From Cardiobacteriaceae bacterium (lineage in GTDB: Bacteria; Pseudomonadota; Gammaproteobacteria; Cardiobacteriales; Cardiobacteriaceae), in assembly GCA_030529365.1 (NCBI GenBank), contig JAUMXB010000003.1, positions 1 to 64,000 on the forward strand: a DNA stretch of 64,000 nt, given 5' to 3'. Positions 6,033-63,152 of the stretch are shown piece by piece. Within the stretch, counting starts at the first letter, position 1, and each line of letters starts with the position of its first letter. The notes under the pieces were generated by a model. It was not told the origin of the DNA. It saw only the letters and a list, made by a program, of their open reading frames with translations, and searched no databases. A program made the position numbers and the translations under genes.

Positions 6033-6126
6033 ACTGTAGGTTGGTGGTGAGCCGTCAGGCGAACTCCAACAGGATGAATATCCAAATGTTGGGGTTCGTG
6101 CTACGCACTCACCACCAACCTACAGT
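6033..6126. repeat. Inverted-repeat element (GTAGGTTGGTGG family)
   Basis: Outer arms are ACTGTAGGTTGGTGGTGAG and its near-exact complement ending CCTACAGT. Inner arms are CCAACA and TGTTGG. It is followed by GTTTTATGATGATTTCTCTATA, shared with the copy at about 2600-2625. Related copies lie at 2507-2592 and 61125-61259. Confidence 0.75.
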
Positions 6127-6153
6127 TTGGGTGTTTTATGATGATTTCTCTAT

Positions 6154-8756: not shown

Positions 8757-8844
8757 TAAAAATGATGGTTTTTTACCATCAATAAGCGCTTGTTACGATA
8801 AATTTTTGCATGGTAAGCGCTTGTTGATGAGAAATTTTATCATT
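8757..8844. repeat. Paired AAGCGCTT element, copy 5
   Basis: Cores at 8784 and 8815, 31 bp apart. It lies between the SDR remnant and the alpha/beta hydrolase, both on the minus strand. Confidence 0.88.
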
Positions 8845-12068: not shown

Positions 12069-12154
12069 AAATAGGAAAATTTCCCATCATTAAGCGCTTG
12101 TGGTGAGAAATTTTCTCGTGATAAGCGCTTTTTGATAGTAAAAAATCACTATTT
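12069..12154. repeat. Paired AAGCGCTT element, copy 6
   Basis: Cores at 12092 and 12123, 31 bp apart. Left arm GGAAAATTTCCC, middle GAGAAATTTTCTC, right arm AGTAAAAAATCACTAT. It lies just past the stop of the META lipoprotein gene. Confidence 0.88.
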
Positions 12155-17079: not shown

Positions 17080-17189
17080 CTCTAATTCACTGCTTTATTT
17101 GGCGTTCATTGCATCAAGGCATCAAGTGTCAACGGCCCTTAAGTCAAAGCCGTTAAAATAATTTGGGAAAATTTCCCGAAAATTTTCAT

Positions 17190-17276
17190 TTTATATAATA
17201 TTTTTACCATCAATAAGCGCTTATCGTGAGAAATTTTCTCGTGATAAGCGCTTTTTTGTGAGAAATTTTACCATTT
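17190..17276. repeat. Paired AAGCGCTT element, copy 7
   Basis: Cores at 17215 and 17246, 31 bp apart. Left arm TTTTTACCA, middle GAGAAATTTTCTC, right arm GAGAAATTTTACCA. This copy is close to the apparent consensus and lies between mlaB and ibaG. Confidence 0.9.
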
Positions 17277-26533: not shown

Positions 26534-26848
26534 ATGGAAAAATTATTCGCACAAATTGACAATCTGAATAATGATGACTTTGAATTGCTGATTAATCATA
26601 TCGACAAACAGAAGCGCAAACGTGCCCGTGATATTTTGGCTGAAGCACAGCGCCAGGCTGCCCGTTTTGTCCAGGATTTCGAAAAAGGCGTGAAAGTTCC
26701 TTCCGTCGGACGGGCGGGAAAACCGGCAAAATATGCCAATCCCAAGGATCCTGGCCAAACCTGGAGCGGTTTCGGTCGCCAGCCCGATTGGGTCAAGGAT
26801 CATGTGCTGGCTGGCGGGAACAAAGACGATCTTCTAATCCAATCCTGA
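26534..26848 (+). CDS. H-NS family nucleoid protein
   Basis: 104 residues. An N-terminal coiled-coil-like dimerisation segment is rich in Lys, Arg and Glu (residues ~15-50). The C-terminal DNA-binding domain has the H-NS core KYANPKDPGQTWSGFGRQPD. Such proteins bind AT-rich DNA and silence genes. It is a natural candidate to bind the many AT-rich intergenic repeats here, though that is speculation. It has its own promoter-like sequence and GGAGAACGGGT upstream. Confidence 0.88.
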   Translation: MEKLFAQIDNLNNDDFELLINHIDKQKRKRARDILAEAQRQAARFVQDFEKGVKVPSVGRAGKPAKYANPKDPGQTWSGFGRQPDWVKDHVLAGGNKDDLLIQS

Positions 26849-28319: not shown

Positions 28320-28405
28320 AAAATAGTTATTTTTTATCATGATAAGCGCTTATTGATGGTAAAAATCATCTATATTAAGCGCTTGGTATAGTAATTTTTT
28401 ATCAT
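28320..28405. repeat. Paired AAGCGCTT element, copy 8
   Basis: Cores at 28344 and 28377, 33 bp apart (the widest clear pair). Arms ATTTTTTATCA and GATGGTAAAAAT. It lies between argC and folD. Confidence 0.87.
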
Positions 28406-34959: not shown

Positions 34960-35042
34960 GAAATAGTTGTTTTTTACCATTAATAAGCGCTTATAGTGAG
35001 AAATTTTATCGCGATAAGCGCTTATGAATGAGAAAATATATC
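34960..35042. repeat. Paired AAGCGCTT element, copy 12
   Basis: Cores at 34985 and 35016, 31 bp apart. It is just upstream of the GNAT gene start and abuts the lysO stop. Confidence 0.9.
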
Positions 35043-35951: not shown

Positions 35952-36044
35952 GGTGTGGGGTTAGGGATGGGTGTTTGTTTGGATGTGGCGGGCAGCGTTC
36001 TTGCAGGGTGGAGGGAAGGTTTTTGTATGAATGGGTTTTAGTTG

Positions 36045-36399
36045 CGCGACGGTGGGTTGACACCCGCCCTGCGGGCTTATGCTTGCTGGGCACTTCGTGC
36101 CCGACGTGTGTTTGATGTCGGTCATGAATGGCCGACTTATTATCGCTGCGCGACGGTGGGTTGACACCCACCCTACGAACGGCAAATGCGTTGGGCGCTT
36201 GTGCCCGATACCTAGCTCGCGTCGGCCATGAATGGCCGATCTACGGAAAGCCTGGCATTTTCCGATGGGTGATGCAGGGACTTGCCTGCAACGCTTGTCG
36301 TGAAGCGACGGTGGGCTGAAGCCCACCCTACGAACGGATACCAAACCCGTGTTGGTGATGAGTGGCCGACCTGCCATCGCTGCGCGACGATGGTTGATA
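36045..36399. repeat. Repeat field upstream of lysO
   Basis: Holds three GTGGGTTGACACCCACCC / GTGGGCTGAAGCCCACCC hairpins (about 36048, 36153, 36309) and two double-hairpin repeats (about 36090-36140 and 36205-36245). 36226-36399 is near-identical to 60757-60930. No gene is supported between 35952 and 36555. Confidence 0.75.
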
Positions 36400-38909: not shown

Positions 38910-38995
38910 AAAAATATTTCATTTTTACCGTTAATAAGCGCTTATGGTGAGAAATTTTATCGCGGAAAGCGCTTTTTGGTGAGAAAATTTCCCAT
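38910..38995. repeat. Paired AAGCGCTT element, copy 14
   Basis: Cores at 38936 and 38967, 31 bp apart. It lies between the convergent ends of rpiA and dksA. Confidence 0.9.
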
Positions 38996-39030: not shown

Positions 39031-39225
39031 GGTGGGCTGAAGCTCACTCTACGGATAGTGCACTGGAAGCACTGCGTGGAGAAATGGTGGGTTGACACCC
39101 ACCCTACGGATAGGCACTTGCAGCGCTGCGTGGTAGGAATGGTGGGTTGACACCCACCCTACGGATGGCACTTGATGCGTTTCGTAGCTGAAATGGTGAG
39201 TTGACACCCACATTACGGGTGGGAA
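39031..39225. repeat. Tandem array of 55-bp units
   Basis: Units begin at 39031, 39086, 39141 and 39195 (periods 55, 55 and 54 bp). Each starts with a GGTGGGTTGACACCCACC-type hairpin followed by CTACGGATRG and a variable tail ending in GAAAT. The last unit is partial. Confidence 0.8.
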
Positions 39226-40579: not shown

Positions 40580-40661
40580 GGTGATTTTTTCTCATGGAAA
40601 AGCGCTTTTGGCGATAAATTTTCTCAATACAAGCGCTTCTTGATGGTAAAAAATGATGGTT
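40580..40661. repeat. Paired AAGCGCTT element, copy 15
   Basis: Cores at 40600 and 40631, 31 bp apart. It abuts the znuB start codon and lies between divergent genes. Confidence 0.88.
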
Positions 40662-54437: not shown

Positions 54438-54776
54438 TTGAGATTGCGCTTTGCGGCCGCGCGGCCGGTTACTTTCTTTGCGTCGCCAAAGAAAGTAACC
54501 AAAGAAAGGCGACCCCGGGGCGCAGTTTTTCCTTGCCGCGGGGCTTTTGGCGGCGGGCTTGTAAACTCGCTGCGCTCAAACACCCAAGCCCGTATTTCCG
54601 CCAAAAAAGCCCCGCGTCTGCGGCTGCGCCCAGGGGCTTTGAGGCGCTTCGTCGTAACTACATGGGTAAACAGCTGGCTGTAGGTCGGCCATTCATGGCC
54701 GACATCGTTTGTTATCGGGCACAAAGTGCTTGCTTGCAAATTGTTGCGCGATGGTGGGCTAAAGCCCACCCTACGG
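54438..54776. repeat. Repeat field upstream of mutS
   Basis: Contains a perfect 14-bp inverted repeat GGTTACTTTCTTTG / CAAAGAAAGTAACC (54467-54500), a GC-rich stretch with ACCCAAGCCCGTATTTCCGC (54581), a double-hairpin repeat (54680-54729) and a GTGGGCTAAAGCCCAC repeat (54754-54769). No gene is supported between 54189 and 55007. Confidence 0.7.
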
Positions 54777-54799
54777 ATGGTTTTTATAAAAACGATAAA

Positions 54800-54884
54800 A
54801 GTGGTAGTTTTTTACCATTTATAAGCGCTTTTTATGAGAAAATTTATCGCAATAAGCGCTTATTAGTGGGAAATTTTCTCATTG
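54800..54884. repeat. Paired AAGCGCTT element, copy 21
   Basis: Cores at 54823 and 54854, 31 bp apart. Left arm TTTTTTACCA, middle GAGAAAATTTATC, right arm GGGAAATTTTCTC. Confidence 0.9.
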
Positions 54885-54928
54885 GTGTGAGAGGTAAGTT
54901 TCAGCTTGTTGTAGCGCAACGATTGTGG

Positions 54929-54980
54929 GCCGGGTACTTTGTGCAGTGGTTTGATGTCGGCCATCAATGGCCGACCTACG
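54929..54980. repeat. Partial double-hairpin repeat
   Basis: GGGTACTTTGTGCAG (decayed first hairpin) then GTCGGCCATCAATGGCCGAC and CTACGG. It lies just past the DUF454 gene stop. Confidence 0.65.
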
Positions 54981-60575: not shown

Positions 60576-60718
60576 ATTGGTAAATGTAGATGTGATAGGA
60601 GGAGCCATAAGCGTAAGCCATGAACGAACCATCCATGTACGGTTTTGCCTTTTGGGCTAACCGTACCGGCATCATCCGCCTGCATCCTGCGCGAGGGTGG
60701 ATACAACTCATTGTCAAC

Positions 60719-61023
60719 GTAGGTCGGGCACTTTGTGCCCGACGTTTGTTTCATGTCGGCCATGAATGGCCGACTTACGGAAAGCCTGGCATTTTCCGAT
60801 GGGTGATGCAGGGACGTTGCCTGCACCGCCTGTCGCGAAGCGACGGTGGGCTGAAGCCCACCCTACGAACGGATATCAAACCCGTGTTGTGATGAGTGGC
60901 CGACTTATTATCACTGCGCGACGGTGGGTTGACACCCACCCTACGGGCGGGAAATGCACACCGTAGGTCGGGCACTTGGTGCCCGACGTTGGTTTGATGT
61001 CGGCCATGAATGGCCGACCTACG
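60719..61023. repeat. Repeat field between convergent genes
   Basis: Two full double-hairpin repeats (60719-60780 and 60963-61023; GTCGGGCACTTNGTGCCCGA, then GTCGGCCATGAATGGCCGAC). Between them are a GTGGGCTGAAGCCCACC hairpin (60846) and a GTGGGTTGACACCCACC hairpin (60924). 60757-60930 is near-identical to 36226-36399. Confidence 0.8.
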
Positions 61024-61068
61024 AAACTGTTTTTCCGCGTGCGTGCCGGCATTGCCGCCATGCATTTT

Positions 61069-61315
61069 ATAGCTATTCAATCAAGGTGTCTTTCGACAAA
61101 AAATAAGTAAAACGAATGTAGCGAGTAGGTTGGTGGGTTTCCCATAAAAATGCAGCCGCATTTTTATGGGAGCCCGGTGGTGAGCCGCAGGCGAACCCCA
61201 ACATAATGATTTAAGGGATAGATGTTGGGGTTCGTGCTATGCACTCACCACCAACCTACACTTGCTCGTCTTTGTTATCGGAGATCGAATTTTGGTTTTC
61301 AGATTGAATGGCTAT
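61069..61315. mobile_element. MITE-like element with 14-bp inverted ends
   Basis: 247 bp. The left end ATAGCTATTCAATCA and right end AGATTGAATGGCTAT are inverted (13 of 15). Inside lie an ATAAAAATGC / GCATTTTTAT hairpin and a 61125-61259 inverted repeat bounded by GTAGGTTGGTGG and CCACCAACCTAC. No coding capacity and no transposase nearby. A decayed relative lies at 32315-32526. Confidence 0.6.
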
Positions 61316-62907: not shown

Positions 62908-62992
62908 TATAATGATTTTTTACCATAGATAAGCGCTTATTGCGGTAAAATTTATCACGAAAAGCGCTTATGAGTGAGAAAATTTCTCATTC
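62908..62992. repeat. Paired AAGCGCTT element, copy 25
   Basis: Cores at 62931 and 62962, 31 bp apart. It lies just upstream of the S33 peptidase start. Confidence 0.9.
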
Positions 62993-63021
62993 TATCGGGT
63001 GGTTCTGTATTGCCGTGTGAG

Positions 63022-63046
63022 GATGGGTTGAAGCCCACCCTCAGTA
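63022..63046. repeat. GGGTTGAAGCCC-type hairpin
   Basis: GATGGGTTGAAGCCCACCCT, a partial member of the GTGGGTTGACACCCAC family, between two paired AAGCGCTT elements. Confidence 0.55.
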
Positions 63047-63066
63047 GGGTTTTGTAAAAATATCAA

Positions 63067-63152
63067 AAATAGTGATTTTTTACCATGATTAAGCGCTTAT
63101 CGTGGGAAATTTTTGCATGACAAGCGCTTGTCTGTGGGAAAAAATCACTATC
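63067..63152. repeat. Paired AAGCGCTT element, copy 26
   Basis: Cores at 63091 and 63122, 31 bp apart, 160 bp from copy 25. It ends 10 bp from the purB stop. Confidence 0.9.

Follow-up and report, generated by a model that had tools for sequence, protein, structure and literature searches.

A paired AAGCGCTT palindrome with a preferred 31-bp spacing: a genus-specific, BIME-like intergenic repeat and candidate double-stranded protein site in Cardiobacteriaceae

Introduction

An old question, attached to REP, BIME and HIP1 alike, is what maintains palindromic repeats in the intergenic DNA of bacteria, and whether their action is at the level of DNA or of RNA. REP, BIME and REPIN families comprise hundreds of short palindromic units, often paired, that lie in convergent and tandem intergenic gaps near gene 3′ ends, combine into mosaics and persist for long. 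HIP1 (GCGATCGC) of cyanobacteria is an over-represented palindromic octamer, present in coding DNA too. DNA uptake sequences (DUS/USS) are enriched short words, which Neisseria also carries as inverted pairs close to the ends of genes; Correia elements and other MITEs are small and interspersed, with inverted half-units and conserved ends. A further parallel is SeqA, which reads paired hemimethylated GATC: in vitro, it binds efficiently only where GATC sites share a face of the helix, about three turns apart (PMC5145175). A two-site, same-face, three-turn arrangement thus exists in nature.

Here we analyse a 64,000-nucleotide stretch (the window) from the 2.3-Mb genome of a Cardiobacteriaceae bacterium (G000), together with a second species of the same genus, g1 (G001). 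About half of the intergenic gaps of G000 hold an element of ~100 bp with two identical 8-letter palindromes, AAGCGCTT, typically 31 bp, or three turns of DNA, apart. It resembles the REP-like families in the features listed above; unlike them, it has no GTAG/CGTC tag and no covarying stem, its cores are constant with free neighbours, its pairs keep a fixed 31-bp distance, and its A and B ends are polar. The likeness to HIP1 is clearest in a second genus, represented by G003; unlike HIP1, the octamer has another sequence, most of its g1 copies belong to the intergenic pairs, and the two methyltransferase families searched gave none common to G000 and G001. With DUS/USS the element shares a density of ~0.7 copies per kb; it differs in being palindromic, paired at a fixed distance and endowed with long arms. 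Contrary to Correia-type MITEs, it shows no signal of target-site duplication, is mostly shared between species, and has no partner transposase that we found. Finally, it has in common with the SeqA layout two short palindromes on one face at about three turns, and many sites per genome; here the sequence is AAGCGCTT and the reader protein is putative.

Results

Anatomy of a polar, paired element

The queried copy is a complete polar element at positions 17172..17275 of the plus strand, typed AB by the family end profiles: its A end, weakly preserved, is on the left and its B end on the right. From the left arm on, it reads TTTTTACCATCAAT-AAGCGCTT-ATCGTGAGAAATTTTCTCGTGAT-AAGCGCTT-TTTTGTGAGAAATTTTACCATT. 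The left outer arm TTTACCA (17203..17209, plus strand) is an A-type half-site of the family consensus TTT[AC][CT]CA. Core 1 (17215..17222), 97% conserved among orthologs, is followed by the central dyad TGAGAAA-T-TTTCTCG (17227..17241) and by core 2 (17246..17253), which starts 31 bp after core 1. The right outer arm TGAGAAA (17259..17265) and the terminal half-site TTTACCA of the B end (17267..17273), both on the plus strand, complete the copy.

The family profiles put the limits of the element ~43 nt ahead of core 1 on the A side and ~21 nt past core 2 on the B side. The A end starts with TTTTTTCATAAAA, continues with a few free letters and then AAAATAGTnATTTTTTACCA (end profile TTTTTTCATAAAA...AAATAGTnATTTTTTACCA); the B end has a sharp limit at ATGAGAAATTTTCTCA. 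Among two-core copies, 121 are of the A/B type (AB and BA together), 25 are A/A and 7 B/B; single-core copies are A/A for the most part. The arrays are not open-ended tandems: 236 have two cores, 123 one and 4 three.

Throughout the aligned copies, the 7-mers TTT[AC][CT]CA and TG[AG][GT]AAA flank the AAGCGCTT cores at constant distance. The repeat unit is therefore ~31 bp long and the distance between cores is the length of one unit, so that common descent explains part of the constant spacing.

A narrow but not absolute distance between cores

Exact AAGCGCTT pairs separated by a gap of 20-28 nt number 462 in the whole G000 genome, against 0 for a reversed-pattern control, and 446 in G001. Elsewhere in the family and order, genomes contain 0-1 such pairs, G003 excepted; the 68 pairs of G003 are no more than chance predicts from its very high octamer count.

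Allowing at most one mismatch over both cores, the window contains 20 pairs at 28-36 bp: 16 at 31 bp, two at 32, one at 33 (28344/28377) and one at 35. The 35-bp pair (21854/21889) falls within coding DNA and is a chance occurrence; the other 19 copies are intergenic. Random placement in the window would give 0.05 exact pairs at any one distance. Besides the queried element, copies with 31 bp lie at 8784..8822, 12092..12130 and 34985..35023, as well as at 38936..38974, with a G001 ortholog in the same gene gap, and at 40600..40638, for which G001 has the same position and length, both cores intact and changed spacer letters. The 33-bp copy (28344..28384) has another type of spacer, and two adjacent two-core copies (62931/62962 and 63091/63122) occupy 62931..63129.

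Beyond these pattern counts, the G000 figures come from a 1.11-Mb sample, 48% of that genome. Pairs of exact cores there are 30 bp apart in 5 cases, 31 in 202, 32 in 22 and 33 in 6, the rest being background; with at most one mismatch, the 277 pairs divide into 2 at 29 bp, 5 at 30, 226 at 31, 32 at 32, 9 at 33 and 3 at 34. In G001 the distance is 31 bp in 143 of 179 pairs. The first-pass annotation had placed the two cores of nearly all two-core copies 31 or 32 bp apart; this is confirmed, and the histogram stays narrow in both species.

The exceptions are of several kinds. Most of the 32-33 bp pairs that we read have a different spacer, GGTAAAAAATCACTATA, with an inverted A end, and so form a mosaic subfamily rather than stretched versions of the 31-bp copies. 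Five G001 copies at 54 bp (L101:3619, L104:11112, L114:1239, L118:8276 and L119:1949) carry the same ~23-bp insert, TCGCTkCGCGAGCTGTTCCAG, at the same central point, possibly a targeted mini-insertion. Given these copies, the 32-33 bp subfamily and the 30-bp orthologs described below, 31 bp is a preferred distance and not an absolute one.

Genomic setting

The element is more than 96% intergenic: only 4 of the 277 copies of the G000 sample fall within predicted genes, as called by a simple ORF model. Among gaps of at least 80 bp, the share with a copy is highest between convergent genes (63%), intermediate between tandem genes (~50%) and lowest between divergent ones (32%). Between tandem genes, 104 copies are nearer the upstream stop and 63 nearer the next start. 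Orientation relative to genes is random (67 vs 66, both species), and relative to replication strands, as judged by GC skew, we found no bias (159 vs 141). Copy numbers in 20-kb intervals are under-dispersed, which is what occupation of roughly every second gap would produce.

The queried copy separates an MlaB-like STAS gene from a BolA/IbaG-like gene, with murA after the latter. In G001, too, the BolA-like gene is preceded by a two-core copy with 31-bp spacing (L235:1156/1187).

Selection on cores and length

Since copies of one family share their spacing by descent, we set the gene gaps of G000 against their orthologs in G001. A copy is present in 36 of these gaps, in 26 of them in both species; the one-sided gaps (7 + 3) mostly show decay, unit loss or heavy divergence, and in one gap the number of units differs, two vs one.

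Across 18 alignable 31-bp orthologous copies, identity is 96.5% and 97.9% at the two cores, 82% in the inner arms and 91% in the outer ones. The 4-5 letters beside the cores are only 44-48% identical, below the 64.5% of four-fold synonymous sites. The middle of the element, which the first-pass annotation took to be free in sequence, is thus free next to each core, but not at its centre, where TGAGAAA/TTTCTCA is conserved.

Twenty-three orthologs have two recognisable cores: 14 at 31 bp, three at 30, one at 32, two at 53-54, and one each at 38, 46 and 207. The last three look like misalignments; without them, 14 of 20 are at 31 bp. Gap events in element-free intergenic alignments, at 0.063 per site, predict that ~24% of 23-nt spacers would remain unchanged. 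The 31-bp distance is kept in 14 of 19 orthologs (binomial p ~5e-6), in a small set whose alignments tend to line up cores; even 14 of 23, misalignments included, greatly exceeds a quarter. Exceptions aside, the length is therefore under constraint, and the spacing is more than inherited: selection holds it. Gene conversion between copies could be an alternative way of keeping a consensus.

The earlier claims on length need to be adjusted accordingly. Intolerance of the middle to length change is mostly borne out, with the five 54-bp copies of G001 and the three 30-bp orthologs as occasional departures. Constant spacing as a sign of a bound protein gains from the selection on length; it was overstated insofar as the distance is partly the unit length of a repeat family.

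Is the element read as RNA?

A REP/BIME-like RNA hairpin, whose cores would pair in the transcript and whose stem would stabilise or end the message in either orientation, is the strongest of the alternatives that we weighed, and in our judgement an unlikely one. A transcript of the element would fold well from either strand, with a mean MFE of about -27 kcal/mol (-26.8); of 367 copies, 354 are predicted to pair core with core. The preference of the element for the 3′ ends of genes and for convergent gaps is the pattern reported for REPs (PMC3733652), and canonical terminators in G000 are somewhat fewer in element-bearing gaps (40/216 vs 58/231). A first column-permutation test was favourable too (1.4 kcal/mol), but most of this effect was lost with block permutation, in a non-redundant set, with G001 alone and in copies oriented by transcription. 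The pairing excess beside the cores amounts to 2-3 points and vanishes in each of the last three. In the arms of 367 copies we found no compensatory change; opposite ends (A vs B) even anti-covary, with a z of -11. Hairpin loops, moreover, do not require a constant 31 bp, and one third of divergent gaps have copies. A search of the element against Rfam gave 0 matches at the gathering threshold.

In a loose sense the element is BIME-like, being extragenic, mosaic, built of paired palindromic units and present in high copy. The GTAG/CGTC tetranucleotide tag of the hairpin foot is absent from its end profiles; REP-like families without terminal tags are known (PMC3733652). As both the tag and the stem-covariation tests fail, it is not a REP in the strict sense. 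A RAYT/REP origin looks unlikely, given the missing tag and the setting of the RAYT-like gene of G001, whose flanks hold mostly GTAGG repeats from another family, although two AAGCGCTT elements lie within ~800 bp. G000 has one Y1_Tnp gene, G001 a weak one and G003 none.

GTAG-tagged REP-like repeats (GTAGGGTGGG..., GTAGGTCGG...) form a separate family, clustered in the window at 36036-36393, 39058-39220, 54675-54980 and 60715-61026. They adjoin one unit of an AAGCGCTT element, or stand in its place, in two orthologous gaps. The composite blocks at 36077-36393 and 60715-61026, ~24.5 kb apart, are 87-95% identical over pieces of 70-80 bp, pointing to a probable duplication or conversion. Another interspersed repeat, GTTGGGGTTcGTGCT...CACCAACCTAC, occurs at 2474-2606, 6088-6137 and 61137-61273, in pieces up to 87% alike.

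Possible spread by transposition

The element could also be a MITE, its spacing inherited and marking the layout of transposase sites at the ends; we rate this as quite unlikely. Hundreds of copies in random orientation, with polar ends and sharp boundaries, are what such an origin would leave, and the queried copy stands between mlaB- and bolA-like genes that in three family members without the element are -9 to 26 bp apart. At the element ends, however, no direct repeat of 2-10 nt rises clearly above the null, though target-site duplications have possibly eroded in old copies. Most copies are common to both species, the viral contigs, plasmids and phages searched as mobile carriers yielded no match, and we found no autonomous partner. 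Spread by transposition may account for the origin; it leaves the continued constraint on cores and length, and hence the maintenance, unexplained.

The octamer outside the element

With synonymous-codon shuffles as the reference, AAGCGCTT leads all palindromic octamers in coding enrichment in G000 (141 observed vs 30.5 expected), G001 (99 vs 27.2) and G003 (663 vs 44), an over-representation of the HIP1 kind in all three. Recognition of the octamer thus seems to extend beyond the element. The coding copies have no arms. In contexts of identical amino acids, 20 of 24 G001 sites are also found in G000, and 20 of 38 in the reverse comparison. A literature search on the octamer returned nothing relevant.

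G003 contains 4391 copies in 1.6 Mb (41 for a control word), mostly coding (e.g. L063-L079). There the word extends to CAAAGCGCTTTG, present once per ~360 bp with no fixed spacing, slightly more evenly than random: this dispersed palindrome is a signal of the HIP1 type in a genome that is not cyanobacterial. In UvrB comparisons the genera g4 and g5, neither of them enriched, stand closer to g1 than does g3, the genus of G003; the enrichment in g3 therefore looks independent.

In genus g2 the octamer is strongly avoided, with 4 copies in G002 (control 49) and 7 in G008 (control 41). Both genomes have many C5 DNA methylases, suggesting restriction of an AGCGCT-like site. A DNA methyltransferase as common cause of the enrichment is disfavoured: a C5 methylase is absent from G000 and from G001 (78% complete) and found once in G003, while an N4/N6 methylase occurs once in G000 and not in G001, so that neither of the two Pfam families searched is common to G000 and G001.

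Judged from these word counts, AAGCGCTT might be a DNA-uptake or HIP1-like genome-wide signal, of which the intergenic pair would be the form accumulated in g1. The coding enrichment in three genomes and the abundance of CAAAGCGCTTTG in G003 speak for it, and PMC3630211 cites a transformation paper on Cardiobacterium hominis, a possible relative. Such a signal leaves the arms and the 31-bp distance unexplained, and the missing enrichment in genera nearer by UvrB, the armless coding copies and the lack of a C5 methylase in G000 and G001 count against it; we regard it as improbable.

Discussion

Recognition of the element as double-stranded DNA is more likely than recognition of an RNA structure. 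Neighbouring letters that drift freely while cores and distance are kept between species argue for a sequence-specific DNA-binding protein. The first-pass annotation had favoured a dimeric or tetrameric protein on one face of the helix over an RNA hairpin; the constraint on cores and length and the lack of robust covariation side with it, as far as an RNA role being disfavoured goes. Its other suggestion, intrinsically bent DNA, is compatible with a predicted curvature above that of dinucleotide shuffles (a wedge-model estimate).

The reading that we favour, with about even confidence, is that of a genus-specific, intergenic BIME-like repeat working as double-stranded DNA: paired sites for a dimeric protein on the same helix face, with a role in architecture or insulation. 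Each AAGCGCTT palindrome would be a specific site of a putative dimeric DNA-binding protein, and the TGAGAAA/TTTCTCA half-sites beside the palindromes may provide secondary contacts or form bent A-T tracts. Two sites three turns apart would face the same side and could be read cooperatively by one protein. Together, the ~460 exact pairs and the single-core copies occupy half of the gaps and lie mostly near 3′ ends; given this distribution, the system would probably serve chromosome architecture or the insulation of transcription units. A counterpoint to this DNA-based model is that copies are nearer stops than starts, like RNA-acting repeats.

The H-NS-like protein that had been named as candidate binder is real (104 aa, 26534..26848, plus strand; PF00816, E 7.4e-14), but as a specific binder it misfits the phyletic pattern, since H-NS occurs in 12 of the 13 genomes searched and the paired element in 2 of 13 (a matter of co-occurrence and not of binding), and recognition of a strict 8-bp palindrome is not known for H-NS.

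More tentatively, the two facets of the octamer could belong to one lineage-specific chromosome-organising system, in which a putative protein would read AAGCGCTT within genes and same-face pairs at about every second gene boundary, the octamer having been amplified independently in G003. Its presence in this second genus offers an independent route to the reader protein. Altogether, invariant palindromes, a held distance, free neighbours and no robust covariation make this family comparative evidence for the DNA side of the old question, and a direct test of that reading becomes possible with it.
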